From positions 186,001-250,000 of the forward strand of contig NZ_JAAORH010000001.1 in the NCBI RefSeq assembly GCF_017696085.1: a stretch of 64,000 nt of DNA, read 5' to 3'. The stretch is from Prochlorococcus marinus XMU1410. Its GTDB lineage: Bacteria > Cyanobacteriota > Cyanobacteriia > PCC-6307 > Cyanobiaceae. This document shows, in pieces, positions 22,024 through 54,053 of the stretch. The notes under the pieces are model-generated. The model saw nothing but the letters and a program-made list of their open reading frames with translations. It did not search any database and was not told the DNA's origin. Position numbers and translations under genes: made by a program. Numbering within the stretch: the first letter of the stretch is position 1; every line of letters begins with the position of its first letter.

Positions 22024-22980
22024 TTGGAAATCATTGAGTCAGATGTAGTTATTATCGGAGGAGGCCCGGCCGGATGTACTTGCGCACTTTATACATCTCG
22101 TTCAAATTTAAAGACAGTAATTTTAGATAAAAATCCATCTGTTGGCGCCTTAGCAATAACTCATCAAATAGCTAATTATCCAGGGGTTCCTGTTGATATA
22201 AGTGGAGAAAAATTACTTACCCTAATGAGAGAACAGGCTGTGCAATACGGCACAGATTATAGAAGAGCGCAAGTGTTTGGAATAGACGCTAGTGGAGAAT
22301 GGAAAATGGTTTACACGCCCGAAGGCACTTTTAAAGCTAAAGCACTTGTACTTGCAAGTGGAGCCATGGGTAGGCCTGCATCATTTAAGGGAGAAGCGGA
22401 TTTTCTTGGTAAAGGAGTAAGTTATTGTGCTACATGTGATGGGGCTTTTTATAAAAATAGAGAGGTTGCCGTTGTTGGAGTAAACAAGGAGGCAATTGAA
22501 GAGGCAACTGTTCTAACTAAATTCGCATCAACCGTGCATTGGATTACATCAAGTGATCCTAAATCAGATAACGAAGAAGCTATGGAATTGATGGATAATT
22601 CAAATATAAAACATTGGAGTAGAACAAGATTATTAGAAATATTGGGAGATGATATGGGTGTTAATGGGGTCGTTGTAAAAAATAAGCAAGAGGAAAATCC
22701 TATCAATTTAAATTTAGATGGAGTGTTTGTCTACATGAGTGGTTCGAAGCCGATTACTGATTTTTTAGGGGATCAAATTGCTTTAAAAGAAGACGGAGGA
22801 GTTATTGTGGATGACTTTATGTCTACAAATTCTGATGGAGTATGGGCTATTGGAGATATAAGAAACACACCATTTAAGCAAGCCGTAGTTGCAGCTTCTG
22901 ACGGATGTATTGCTGCAATGTCAATTGATAGATATTTAAATAGTAGAAAAAATATTAGAGTGGATTGGATTCATTCTTAA
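22024..22980 (+). CDS. Thioredoxin-reductase-like flavoprotein lacking NADPH-binding motifs
   Basis: A 318-residue protein with the TrxB fold. FAD motif GGGPAG is at 12-17, the redox pair CATC at C135/C138, and the C-terminal FAD segment WAIGDIRNTPFKQ is intact. The two motifs that hold NADPH in TrxB are gone: GxGxxA reads GVNKEA (152-157), and HRRxxxR reads TSSDPKS (175-181). It may therefore not use NADPH. Relatives without these motifs include ferredoxin-dependent flavin thioredoxin reductases and the diflavin-linked disulfide oxidoreductases reported from cyanobacteria; which it matches is inference. The start is TTG with a strong AAAAGGAG upstream. Confidence 0.85.
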   Translation: MEIIESDVVIIGGGPAGCTCALYTSRSNLKTVILDKNPSVGALAITHQIANYPGVPVDISGEKLLTLMREQAVQYGTDYRRAQVFGIDASGEWKMVYTPEGTFKAKALVLASGAMGRPASFKGEADFLGKGVSYCATCDGAFYKNREVAVVGVNKEAIEEATVLTKFASTVHWITSSDPKSDNEEAMELMDNSNIKHWSRTRLLEILGDDMGVNGVVVKNKQEENPINLNLDGVFVYMSGSKPITDFLGDQIALKEDGGVIVDDFMSTNSDGVWAIGDIRNTPFKQAVVAASDGCIAAMSIDRYLNSRKNIRVDWIHS

Positions 22981-23001: not shown

Positions 23002-23283
23002 CTAAAGGGGTGTTGCTTCAGAAATATAAGCGACTCCTCCGTAATAGCTCAAATCGTCCCTGATGTTATCTCTCATTTTATCTATTAATTCTTGCTCGCA
23101 AAAAACAATTACATGAGCATTTGCTCCTAATCCTGTAAATTCCATATCTTCTGTTACAACTCTTTCAGGTCCTCTGCCTGTAGCGTGTTTCATAACTGTA
23201 TATCCAGGAACATTAGCTTTTTCTAATGTTTTAATGATTGCATCTAGTTCTCTTTCACTAAATATCAAATCTAATCTTTTCAT
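23002..23283 (-). CDS. sbtB: PII-like protein SbtB, regulator of bicarbonate transporter SbtA
   Basis: A 93-residue ferredoxin-fold PII relative encoded 2 bp after sbtA. SbtB proteins bind adenine nucleotides, including cAMP, and dock on the cytosolic face of SbtA to control bicarbonate uptake. The T-loop region (about residues 32-50, with GRGPERVV) and the VIVFCEQE strand are visible. Freshwater homologues are near 110 residues and end in a cysteine-bounded CGPxGC loop; this one stops at SEATPL with no such loop and has a single cysteine. Identification rests on the fold pattern and the sbtA linkage. Confidence 0.85.
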   Translation of the reverse strand: MKRLDLIFSERELDAIIKTLEKANVPGYTVMKHATGRGPERVVTEDMEFTGLGANAHVIVFCEQELIDKMRDNIRDDLSYYGGVAYISEATPL

Positions 23284-23285
23284 TT

Positions 23286-24284
23286 TTATAAAGGTGATAG
23301 TGGGATAATAGTATTTACTAAACTCATATATATGGGAATGCCGAGAACTATATTGAATGGGAAAGTTAGACCTAGTGTAGTTGAAATATAATAACTAGAT
23401 TTAGCTTCTGGAACTGTCATCCTCATTGCTGCAGGAACTGCTAAATAAGACGCGCTTGCACATAAAACCACAAATAAAAGTGAGTTGCCAGGTCCTAAAG
23501 ATAAAAATCTTGCAACGAAAACACCAATAAATGCGTTAAATAAAGGCATAAAAATGGCAAATCCAATCAAGAACGAACCTGCATTTTTCAGTCTCGGCAA
23601 TCTTTGAGCAGCAACTATTCCCATATCTAACAAGAAGAAGCATTCTGCTCCATAGAATAATTGTCCAGTAAAAGGCTCCATTTTTTCAATTCCTGAGGGA
23701 TTAATGGAAGCAGTGAGAAATCCTACAATCAAGCTTGAGAGCAATAAATAAACTGATCCATTCAAAAGTGATTCGTGTAATATTGCGCTTAGATGCATTT
23801 TTCTTGATTTTGGTCTATTTTTTGGAGCTGCAAATTTCACAAGTAATAATCCAACAATTATTGCAGGAGACTCCATTAAAGCTAAAGCGCCAACCATAAA
23901 CCCATCAAAAGCTATTTTTTGACTTTCTAAAAAACTTTCTGCAGAGATAAATGTAACAGCACTAATTGAACCGTATGCTGCTGCTATCGCGGCTGAATTA
24001 AAGACATCAAACTTAAATCTTAAAATTAAAAATCCAATCAGCGGGATTACTAGTGACATCAGTATTGCAGCACTTAAAGTAGGCAATACTTGATCTGTAA
24101 AACCACTTTTCTGTATCTCTATACCTCCTTTAAAACCAATAGCTAGGAGTAGGTATAAGGAGAAGAGTTTAGGTAATGGAGCTGGTATCTCTAAATCAGA
24201 TTTAAAGAGTACTGATATTGCTCCAATCAAAAAGAAAAGAACTGGCGGGGCTAATACATTTTGCAGAATTGGACTTATTTCCAT
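23286..24284 (-). CDS. sbtA: Sodium-dependent bicarbonate transporter SbtA
   Basis: Integral plasma-membrane protein of 332 residues with about ten hydrophobic helices in two similar halves, as in SbtA. It imports bicarbonate with sodium to feed the carboxysome. Recognisable points are the N-terminal NVLAPPVLFFLIG helix, AAAYGSISAVTF at the first crossover region, and CASASYLAVPAAMRM at the second. It is the middle gene of a tight operon: a SulP transporter 6 bp upstream and sbtB 2 bp downstream. That arrangement supports an inorganic-carbon role for all three. Confidence 0.88.
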   Translation of the reverse strand: MEISPILQNVLAPPVLFFLIGAISVLFKSDLEIPAPLPKLFSLYLLLAIGFKGGIEIQKSGFTDQVLPTLSAAILMSLVIPLIGFLILRFKFDVFNSAAIAAAYGSISAVTFISAESFLESQKIAFDGFMVGALALMESPAIIVGLLLVKFAAPKNRPKSRKMHLSAILHESLLNGSVYLLLSSLIVGFLTASINPSGIEKMEPFTGQLFYGAECFFLLDMGIVAAQRLPRLKNAGSFLIGFAIFMPLFNAFIGVFVARFLSLGPGNSLLFVVLCASASYLAVPAAMRMTVPEAKSSYYISTTLGLTFPFNIVLGIPIYMSLVNTIIPLSPL

Positions 24285-24290
24285 AAATTA

Positions 24291-25958
24291 TTAGGCTATT
24301 TCATTTAGAGCAGTTTTTAAAGCTTCTTTTCTTGTTTCAATAATCCCTTCAACTCCAAACTTAGCTAATCTATCTTTTACTTTTTCATTAGCACCTGCAA
24401 CAAATGCTTTTCTGGAATTATTTTTTGCTTCTTGCATCATATCTTCTATTGCCAGAGTCGCGGTCACTCCAAGTCTTGGAACATCAGTGATATCTAATAT
24501 CAAAACTTTGTAGTTTCTTACAAGCATCATTCTCTCAGATATACCTTTAGCTGCTCCAAAACTAAGTGGTCCTTTAAGTCTAAATAGCATTACTTCTCCT
24601 GAACATCTATCTAGTAGTGCTTTTTCATCAGCAGGTAATGCATTTTTAGCTTGATCATCTTTTGATAAAGGATTATCCTCATCCATACCTTCTAGTTGAG
24701 TTTCAGTTATTGAATCGATAGTGAGCATATTTGCTATGAATACACCTACTAGAACTGCCCAAATTAAATCCCAAAAAACTGTCATCAAAAGTACGCCATA
24801 CATTACTACTGAAGTTTTTAAAGATAATTTGTGAGCCCTCCTTAAAAATCCCCAATCAATAATATCTAAACCTACTTTTATAAGGATTCCTGCTAGTAAC
24901 GCAGTTGGTATTTGCTCAGCTAAAGGTCCCGCACCAACTAAAACTATCAACAATACAACTGAGTGAACCATACCAGAGATAGGAGTTGATCCTCCAGATT
25001 TAACATTTATGACTGTTCTCATTGTTGCTCCTGCTCCAGGTAAACCTGAAAACAGACCTGCAACTGCATTTCCTATCCCTTGACCAATAAGTTCTCTATC
25101 AGAATTATGTTTTGTTTGAGAGATATTGTCTGCTACTAGAGATGTCAGTAAGGAGTCAATTGCGCCAAGTACTGCTAGGACTAATCCTGCTTTGAAAATA
25201 ATTGGGAAATATTGATTAAAACTTGGGAAATTTAAAGATGGAACTCCCCTTGGAATTTCTCCAATTCTATCAATTGCTCCATCTCCAAAAATTAATATTG
25301 ATATTGGAGTAACTATCAATAGTGCCAAGAGAGGAGAAGGTACCCACTGACTTATTTTTCTAGGAGTAAGAAATACTATACCTAGTGTCATTATTGCAAC
25401 TCCAATAGCAGCACCATTGGGCTGGAAATTTGAAAATACAGTAGTTAAAGATTCGACTACTCCACCTCGAGTGCTAATTCCAAGTAATGGTCCAATCTGA
25501 AGCGCAATGATTATTACTCCAATACCAGACATAAATCCTGAAACAACAGAATATGGAACTAAAGTAATGTATTTACCTAGTTTTAGAATCCCGAATAATA
25601 TTTGCAGTAAGCCGCCAATGACTACCGCTGCCATAACTAAAGGTAAAATTTGTCCTGCAGAAAGATCTCTTGGAACCCCTACTGCGGCCAAGCCTGCTAC
25701 TACGCCTGCAACAGTTACACTCATGGGACCGGTAGGTCCACTAACTTGAGCAGGTGTTCCGCCGAATAATGCGGCTAAAAAACCAACTACTACTGCTCCA
25801 TAAAGTCCATAAATTGCTCCGCCAGGTCCTAACGCAGCATTTCCAAAAGCAAGAGCGAGAGGTAAAGCCACTACTGCGGCTGTGATGCCTCCTAGAATAT
25901 CGCCTCTTACATTTTTCAGATGAAATCCATTAATTATGTTCAAAGATGCTTTCCTCAA
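24291..25958 (-). CDS. bicA: SulP-family anion transporter with STAS domain, BicA-like
   Basis: A 555-residue SLC26/SulP carrier. The first ~410 residues contain the membrane domain with the motif VSGPTGPMSVTV and the GNAVAGLFSGLPGAGATMRT segment; a STAS domain follows from about residue 440 (VLILDITDVPRLGVTATLAIEDM broken over its centre). In cyanobacteria this family includes BicA, a low-affinity, high-flux Na+/bicarbonate symporter; sulfate transport is the main alternative. The operon with sbtA and sbtB favours bicarbonate. The start appears to be TTG at 25958, with another TTG five codons later. No ATG lies near the expected N-terminus. Confidence 0.8.
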   Translation of the reverse strand: MRKASLNIINGFHLKNVRGDILGGITAAVVALPLALAFGNAALGPGGAIYGLYGAVVVGFLAALFGGTPAQVSGPTGPMSVTVAGVVAGLAAVGVPRDLSAGQILPLVMAAVVIGGLLQILFGILKLGKYITLVPYSVVSGFMSGIGVIIIALQIGPLLGISTRGGVVESLTTVFSNFQPNGAAIGVAIMTLGIVFLTPRKISQWVPSPLLALLIVTPISILIFGDGAIDRIGEIPRGVPSLNFPSFNQYFPIIFKAGLVLAVLGAIDSLLTSLVADNISQTKHNSDRELIGQGIGNAVAGLFSGLPGAGATMRTVINVKSGGSTPISGMVHSVVLLIVLVGAGPLAEQIPTALLAGILIKVGLDIIDWGFLRRAHKLSLKTSVVMYGVLLMTVFWDLIWAVLVGVFIANMLTIDSITETQLEGMDEDNPLSKDDQAKNALPADEKALLDRCSGEVMLFRLKGPLSFGAAKGISERMMLVRNYKVLILDITDVPRLGVTATLAIEDMMQEAKNNSRKAFVAGANEKVKDRLAKFGVEGIIETRKEALKTALNEIA

Positions 25959-31405: not shown

Positions 31406-31624
31406 TTAATCATCATAAACAAGACATTCTGGTTCGTCTGGGTTTGCGTCGCAAAATAATTCCAAAGCATTAGGATCATGTTTATCTTCTGGATGATGAT
31501 CCTTATATTCTTCGAGTTCTTTTAGCTCTTCAGTTAAATGTCTGACCTTTGGAAGATTGCCCTCTGCTTTTGCAGATTCGATTTCCGATTGATCTTTTTG
31601 GATGTGTTCGTCAATGGATTTCAT
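31406..31624 (-). CDS. cp12: CP12, Calvin-cycle redox regulator (C-terminal cysteine pair only)
   Basis: A 72-residue, intrinsically disordered protein that bridges GAPDH and phosphoribulokinase into an inactive complex in the dark. The C-terminal GAPDH-binding tail is clear: ALELFCDANPDEPECLVYDD, with C58 and C67 able to form the redox disulfide. The N-terminal cysteine pair of plant CP12, linked to PRK binding, is missing. The middle region has the helical EELKELEEYK stretch. The gene stands alone, with a 118-bp spacer upstream before the GST gene and a shared terminator downstream. Confidence 0.9.
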   Translation of the reverse strand: MKSIDEHIQKDQSEIESAKAEGNLPKVRHLTEELKELEEYKDHHPEDKHDPNALELFCDANPDEPECLVYDD

Positions 31625-53480: not shown

Positions 53481-54053
53481 ATGTTTAAAGTAAGTAATAC
53501 CGCACAAGTGCAATCTGAGAGTCAAAAGCCAATTTTAAATACAAATCTAAAAACAATACTTATTTTGATTATATCTATTGTTATTGTTTCATTGCTTTTG
53601 TTTAGAAATTTATTTTTTAAATCAACTTATCTTCTAAAGAGTTTTGGAGAATTATCTGTTGACCCTGAAATAGCTTTTACAAATAATAAGCCTACATTTC
53701 TTGAATTTTATGCCGAGTGGTGTGAAGTTTGCAAAGAAATGGCTCCACAAGTTTCCGCTTTTAAAGATGAATACGAAAAAGATATTAATTTTGTTTTTTT
53801 AAATGTTGATAATCAAAAATGGGGTAATTACATCAAGAAGTTCGCCGTCAACGGGATTCCTCAAGTTAATCTTTTTGATAAAAAGGGTGATTTAATATCT
53901 ACTTTTATTGGTAAACAAGATGAAATAAAAATAAGAGAATCTATTAATAATTTAGAAAAAGAAGTGAAGCCCTATGAGGAAATTATTAATGCTGAATTTT
54001 CAACAATTCAAGAAAATAAAAATAATGAGGTTAATCCTCGTAGTCATGGATAA
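53481..54053 (+). CDS. txlA: Membrane-anchored thioredoxin, TxlA/HCF164 type
   Basis: A 190-residue protein with one membrane helix (about residues 25-45) followed by a thioredoxin domain with the active site WCEVC. TxlA and its plastid relative HCF164 are thylakoid thioredoxins facing the lumen, needed for cytochrome b6f assembly and lumenal thiol supply. I start it at ATG 53481; a TTG six codons earlier is possible. The C-terminal tail is acidic and ends RSHG. It converges with thyX, with a 3-bp gap. Confidence 0.87.
   Translation: MFKVSNTAQVQSESQKPILNTNLKTILILIISIVIVSLLLFRNLFFKSTYLLKSFGELSVDPEIAFTNNKPTFLEFYAEWCEVCKEMAPQVSAFKDEYEKDINFVFLNVDNQKWGNYIKKFAVNGIPQVNLFDKKGDLISTFIGKQDEIKIRESINNLEKEVKPYEEIINAEFSTIQENKNNEVNPRSHG

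Follow-up and report, generated by a model that had tools for sequence, protein, structure and literature searches.

The window, a stretch of 64,000 nucleotides from Prochlorococcus marinus XMU1410 (contig NZ_JAAORH010000001.1, positions 186,001 to 250,000), has a G+C content of 32% and belongs to a genome of 1.63 Mb in four contigs (G000), whose host was read as a member of a high-light clade of Prochlorococcus. An open reading frame check of the window revealed a gene at 22024-22980 that encodes a protein of 318 aa and begins with a TTG codon. An in-frame TAA is located one codon before this start, the sequence AAAGGAG lies upstream of it, and in the alignment the start agrees residue for residue with the ferredoxin-dependent flavin thioredoxin reductase (FFTR) of Gloeobacter violaceus. 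The product is a flavoprotein of the thioredoxin reductase fold with intact FAD motifs and both redox cysteines. As an earlier note on this DNA had described, GGGPAG (residues 12-17), CATC (135-138), and GDI (277-279) occupy their normal places, and both NADPH motifs are replaced; GVNKEA and TSSDPKS stand at residues 152-157 and 175-181, and neither GxGxxA nor HRRxxxR is present. The top NCBIfam match was to TIGR01292, the model for NADPH thioredoxin reductase, but its score of 307 bits (E 8.5e-92) remained below the 343-bit cut-off. A structure prediction from the single sequence reached a mean pLDDT of 33.7, too low for use. Among the closest 80 of 569 relatives, the protein is 99-100% identical in MIT 9401, MIT 9314, and many single-cell genomes. 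An sbtB-like gene runs towards this gene from the opposite strand, with 21 bases between the two. Coordinates are collected in Table 1.

Table 1. Features of the FFTR locus and related genes in the window.
Feature	Position	Strand	Remark
FFTR gene	22024..22980	+	209 of 317 residues shared with G. violaceus FFTR (5J60/6XTF)
FAD-binding motif GGGPAG, residues 12-17	22057..22074	+	
Redox-active CATC, residues 135-138	22426..22437	+	Cys135 and Cys138 numbered alike in G. violaceus FFTR
Lost NADPH motif 1, GVNKEA for GxGxxA, residues 152-157	22477..22494	+	
Lost NADPH motif 2, TSSDPKS for HRRxxxR, residues 175-181	22546..22566	+	
W315, C-terminal tail tryptophan	22966..22968	+	Equivalent in G. violaceus FFTR stacks on partner-subunit FAD
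sbtB-like gene (PF00543)	23002..23283	-	Convergent neighbour; outside the FFTR system
sbtA bicarbonate transporter gene (PF05982)	23286..24284	-	Neighbour; outside the FFTR system
SulP/BicA-type transporter gene	24291..25958	-	Neighbour; outside the FFTR system
CP12 gene (PF02672)	31406..31624	-	8.4 kb from FFTR; two cysteines only, C58 and C67

The best solved-structure match of the window protein is the FFTR of G. violaceus (formerly DTR), to which it aligns ungapped and over the full length with an E value of 8.8e-140. Entries 5J60 and 6XTF represent that enzyme alone and with the ferredoxin Fdx1, respectively (PMC8469568). The two proteins share C135/C138 and the W315 tail, and the G. violaceus enzyme is also devoid of the NADPH motifs, carrying its own GLNPEA and TPKDPHT instead. 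It was reported to use ferredoxin as the donor and to be unable to use NADPH, while its W315 stacks on the flavin of the partner subunit; the potentials given for the system are -448 mV for FAD, -424 mV for Fdx1, -356 mV for the disulfide, about -290 mV for Trx, and -320 mV for NADPH (PMC12796991). Unlike its G. violaceus counterpart, the window gene starts with TTG and resides in an AT-rich picocyanobacterial host that also keeps NTRC. The clostridial FFTRs, such as CaFFTR2 of Clostridium acetobutylicum (6GNC), are described as ferredoxin-fed enzymes of the same fold that do not use NADPH; however, their chains are shorter (288-294 aa), they match the window protein much more weakly (6gna, E 2e-33; 6gnc, E 2e-30), and the tryptophan tail is described for cyanobacterial FFTR.

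Judged by these comparisons, the window protein is almost certainly the Prochlorococcus FFTR, fed by ferredoxin and acting on thioredoxin. This is a known kind of enzyme and not a new one, and the Prochlorococcus FFTR has already been discussed in print (PMC9025218, PMC12796991). The earlier note had proposed an electron donor other than NADPH and a likeness to ferredoxin-dependent flavin thioredoxin reductases, and both proposals proved right. It had also called the donor unknown, which no longer holds; the question is answered by homology, because ferredoxin is reported for the 66%-identical G. violaceus enzyme, whose complex with ferredoxin has been solved.

The window protein would then behave as the Gloeobacter enzyme does. 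Two reduced plant-type [2Fe-2S] ferredoxins would deliver one electron each to the FAD of FFTR, a domain rotation would then let the reduced FAD open the C135-C138 disulfide, and the resulting dithiol would pass its electrons to the free thioredoxin TrxA. Reduced TrxA could subsequently switch on light-regulated targets, which we infer to include Calvin-cycle enzymes and CP12/PRK. In such a cycle, the NADPH site, which is degenerate, would be dispensable, and Trp315 from the partner subunit would stack on the flavin. The CP12 gene, which the earlier note had placed about 9 kb away, was indeed recovered at a comparable distance by its PF02672 match, and CP12 may be one of the proteins that the thioredoxin chain acts on. 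Buey et al. 2021 (Plant Physiol. 186:285), cited for the ferredoxin donor, reportedly tested CP12 reduction as well. With an FFTR of this type, photosynthetic ferredoxin would control carbon fixation through thioredoxin with no iron-sulfur reductase in between; the flavoenzyme would stand in for the iron-sulfur enzyme used by most cyanobacteria, in a phototroph that is abundant where the ocean is poor in iron, a setting discussed in PMC9025218 and PMC12796991.

The fate of the NADPH motifs was followed in an alignment of 142 FFTR rows (101 distinct sequences, with 34 rows equal to the window protein). It consists of 80 named rows, 41 Prochlorococcus-like rows (two genomes being entered twice), G054, nine Synechococcus-type rows including G025, and 11 rows from other families; it takes in 50 of the 70 FFTR genomes of the family sample described below, the window's genome included, with two FFTR fragments of G247 left out. 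The 80 named rows are the top-ranking ones of 569 relatives and share 99% identity or more with the query (77 titled Prochlorococcus and three Synechococcaceae cyanobacterium), so that their lack of variation means little; it is the remaining 62 rows that are informative. Residue 154 is Asn in 141 rows and Ser in one, Arg176 occurs in none of the 142, Arg177 in three, and Arg181 in four, and Trp315 is found in every row. NTRC rows, that of the host genome included, carry Gly154, Arg176, and Arg181 in 6/6 and Trp315 in 0/6. On the evidence of the alignment, a sequencing error does not explain the motif loss, which is characteristic of the family. PMC9025218 likewise reports that none of its FFTR sequences has the NADPH motif, and the FFTR of Prochlorococcus marinus SS120 is among the aligned sequences named in a figure legend of that article.

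A protein of the thioredoxin reductase fold from genome G270 (L139) is 44% identical to FFTR; it carries GEPPEA and LKGQAPS in place of the NADPH motifs, has CAIC at the redox centre, and keeps the C-terminal Trp. This protein is a deep branch beside FFTR.

The diflavin-linked alternative named in the earlier note would make the window protein a DDOR, in which every subunit binds a further FAD. Both belong to one superfamily, and the DDORs Gll2934 (5N0J/5ODE) and Slr0600 (5JRI), the latter of which we take to be a DDOR, share with it the thioredoxin reductase fold, a CxxC, and a lost NADPH site; the phmmer matches, though significant, are weak (5n0j/5ode, E 7e-20; 5jri, E 3e-17). However, the DDOR-family protein L175, whose best PDB matches are Slr0600 5jri (E 3e-114) and 5n0j/5ode (E 3e-101), is 26% identical to the window protein, compared with 66% for FFTR, and as a query in the host genome it matches the FFTR gene alone, weakly. 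The CxxC context differs as well, and W315 follows FFTR. In addition, DDOR is reported to hold two flavins per subunit and to be absent from Prochlorococcus while present in all other groups (PMC9025218). This reading, very improbable in our estimation, was rejected, since the protein is not closer to DDOR than to FFTR. No more plausible is a thioredoxin reductase that uses NADPH or NADH through an alternative binding motif. Such an enzyme would fit the TrxB-type fold, the CATC, and the sub-threshold TIGR01292 match, and E. coli TrxB (1TRB/1F6M) and cyanobacterial NTRC indeed resemble the window protein in fold, FAD motif, and CxxC position; NTRC, unlike FFTR, keeps G154, R176, and R181, lacks W315, and bears a fused thioredoxin domain. 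Five alignments were considered, four of them with thioredoxin reductases other than 5J60, and two of these (5mh4 and 5uth) were read residue by residue. GGDSA.EE stands there opposite VNKEAIEE and HRRDxxR opposite TSSDPKS, with no NADPH residues supplied by neighbouring positions. Both motifs are thus missing without a substitute nearby in the alignments read, Arg176 occurs in none of the FFTR rows, and the 66%-identical G. violaceus enzyme was reported unable to use NADPH (PMC12796991). The NADPH thioredoxin reductase reading was rejected on the absence of GxGxxA and HRRxxxR and the TIGR01292 score below cut-off.

The neighbourhood could be taken to mean that FFTR serves specifically to regulate bicarbonate uptake, operating a disulfide switch with SbtB-SbtA-BicA. 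As the earlier note had observed, inorganic-carbon genes face FFTR: those for a SulP/BicA-type transporter, SbtA, and a PII-like SbtB lie on the opposite strand. Genes for an ABC1 kinase, a 105-aa ORF, enolase, sbtB, sbtA, bicA, and hemB flank FFTR in 61/61 named loci with full 5-kb flanks, all very close relatives from among the closest 80 of 569 (19 of the 80, with shorter flanks, were uncounted), and the sbtB, sbtA, and bicA genes adjoin it in 7 of 20 loci of more distant genomes (L167-L173). Moreover, SbtB of Synechocystis has a C-terminal R-loop with two cysteines that is reduced by TrxA, and about half of 460 SbtBs carry this loop (PMC10991534). In contrast, the window SbtB (93 aa) has a single cysteine, C62, and no C-terminal R-loop pair, and the gene set was not found beside FFTR in the other 13 of the 20 distant loci, namely the nine Synechococcus-type ones, G054, L165, L166, and L174. 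Among them, L162 has a bicA homologue alone near FFTR, L157 is truncated to 3.6 kb at one side, and L174 still has enolase, ABC1 kinase, and hemB. Since the genes are convergent, FFTR and the carbon genes share no promoter. The neighbourhood is therefore no evidence of coupling, because the set was not found next to FFTR at 13 of the 20 distant loci and SbtB lacks the cysteine pair; the link to an inorganic-carbon operon hinted at in the earlier note was rejected on synteny and the missing R-loop cysteines, and a dedicated bicarbonate regulator is barely credible.

For the preferred reading, that of a ferredoxin-fed thioredoxin reductase, the other redox genes of the host are relevant. Profile searches of the genome gave 0 matches to PF02943 and 0 to PF02941, and a direct search for a homologue of the FTR catalytic subunit found none there, the same search being positive in 5/5 control genomes, one of which was the source of the query. 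FFTR thus appears to replace FTR in this host. According to PMC9025218, Gloeobacter and Prochlorococcus are the only cyanobacteria without FTR, and all of them carry FFTR. The wording of PMC12796991, "sole thioredoxin reduction system", is too strong for this genome, because its one NTRC (458 aa, with a CGPC-bearing thioredoxin domain and VRSDKLR at the place of HRRxxxR) keeps GGGDSA, R176, and R181. Since NADPH can reach a thioredoxin domain via NTRC, that wording would best be read as the sole reductase of free thioredoxin. The five PF00085 matches of the genome are a 107-aa TrxA (WCGPC), NTRC, frames of 205 aa and 330 aa, and a 129-aa match below the cut-off, and the best of five PF00111 matches is a 99-aa ferredoxin. 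A second thioredoxin-domain frame lies in the window at about 53682-53948 (G000:C1:239682-239948; PF00085, E 3.6e-18) in a 205-aa open frame.

The distribution of the two reductases was counted in a family sample of 151 Cyanobiaceae-like genomes, in which FTR was scored if either subunit was found, and the labels Prochlorococcus-like and Synechococcus-type were assigned here from FFTR similarity, phycobilisome genes, and genome size. FFTR occurs in 70 genomes (one partial, G036), and the catalytic and variable subunits of FTR in 77 each. Both reductases are found in 8 genomes, FFTR only in 62, FTR only in 73, and neither in 8; for the 95 genomes with a completeness of 90% or more, the respective numbers are 8, 30, 57, and 0. 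The 8 genomes with neither are all less than 90% complete, and their apparent lack of both is read as assembly gaps. That no near-complete genome is without both is as expected if the two enzymes do the same job, but they are not strictly interchangeable, because 8 near-complete genomes keep both. This count, together with two genomes outside Prochlorococcus that may have lost FTR, is what the present analysis adds, and it is a small addition.

The candidate losses come from the 30 near-complete FFTR-only genomes, of which 28 have one or two phycobilisome-family genes and two, G054 and G025, have 12-13. G054 (L164) is a 3.0 Mb genome in one contig, 98% complete, with an FFTR about 80% identical to that of the window in a locus of 66% G+C, while G025 (L155) has 1.9 Mb in 20 contigs, is 95% complete, and encodes an FFTR 64% identical. 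Profile searches found neither FTR subunit in either genome, and a direct FTR search was also negative in both. The single contig makes the absence good evidence in G054; in G025, it is possibly due to assembly gaps. In the published picture, all Synechococcus studied in one article contain FTR (PMC9025218), and FTR is called globally distributed in picocyanobacteria (PMC9361551); G054 and G025 differ in combining full phycobilisome sets and FFTR with no FTR found. Because these two FFTR-only genomes carry full phycobilisome sets, FTR may have been lost in lineages other than Prochlorococcus and Gloeobacter too, and we lean slightly towards the view that FFTR is the sole ferredoxin-thioredoxin reductase in these phycobilisome-bearing picocyanobacteria too. 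If so, FTR replacement happened repeatedly and is not peculiar to the streamlining of Prochlorococcus genomes. An enolase tree of 28 rows places G054 with eleven FTR-bearing genomes (99/96), one of which, G119, also has FFTR, and not with Prochlorococcus, while it does not resolve the position of G025 or of any Prochlorococcus-like row; the row of G056 (L185) was mis-extracted (490 aa, branch length 10) and was disregarded, though present when the tree was built.

In the FFTR tree (43 rows), the FFTRs of the family group together (93/93), as do the Prochlorococcus-like ones (92/94), neither grouping being starred. The Synechococcus-type FFTRs form a group (100/100) on a long branch (0.53), and G054 is unresolved at the base. 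The tree neither proves nor excludes lateral transfer of FFTR. The Synechococcus-type FFTRs (L155-L163) show 62-65% identity to the window protein, compared with 66-72% for the eleven FFTRs from other families, and in eight of the nine the genome also keeps FTR; these proteins are perhaps relaxed or shifted in function. In a locus from another family (L127 1492-2901, G201), FFTR is followed on its own strand, after no more than about 200 bases, by an FTR catalytic gene. The two are possibly a gene pair, an adjacency seen in 1 of the 35 loci inspected (L125-L139, whose flanks are short, and L155-L174).
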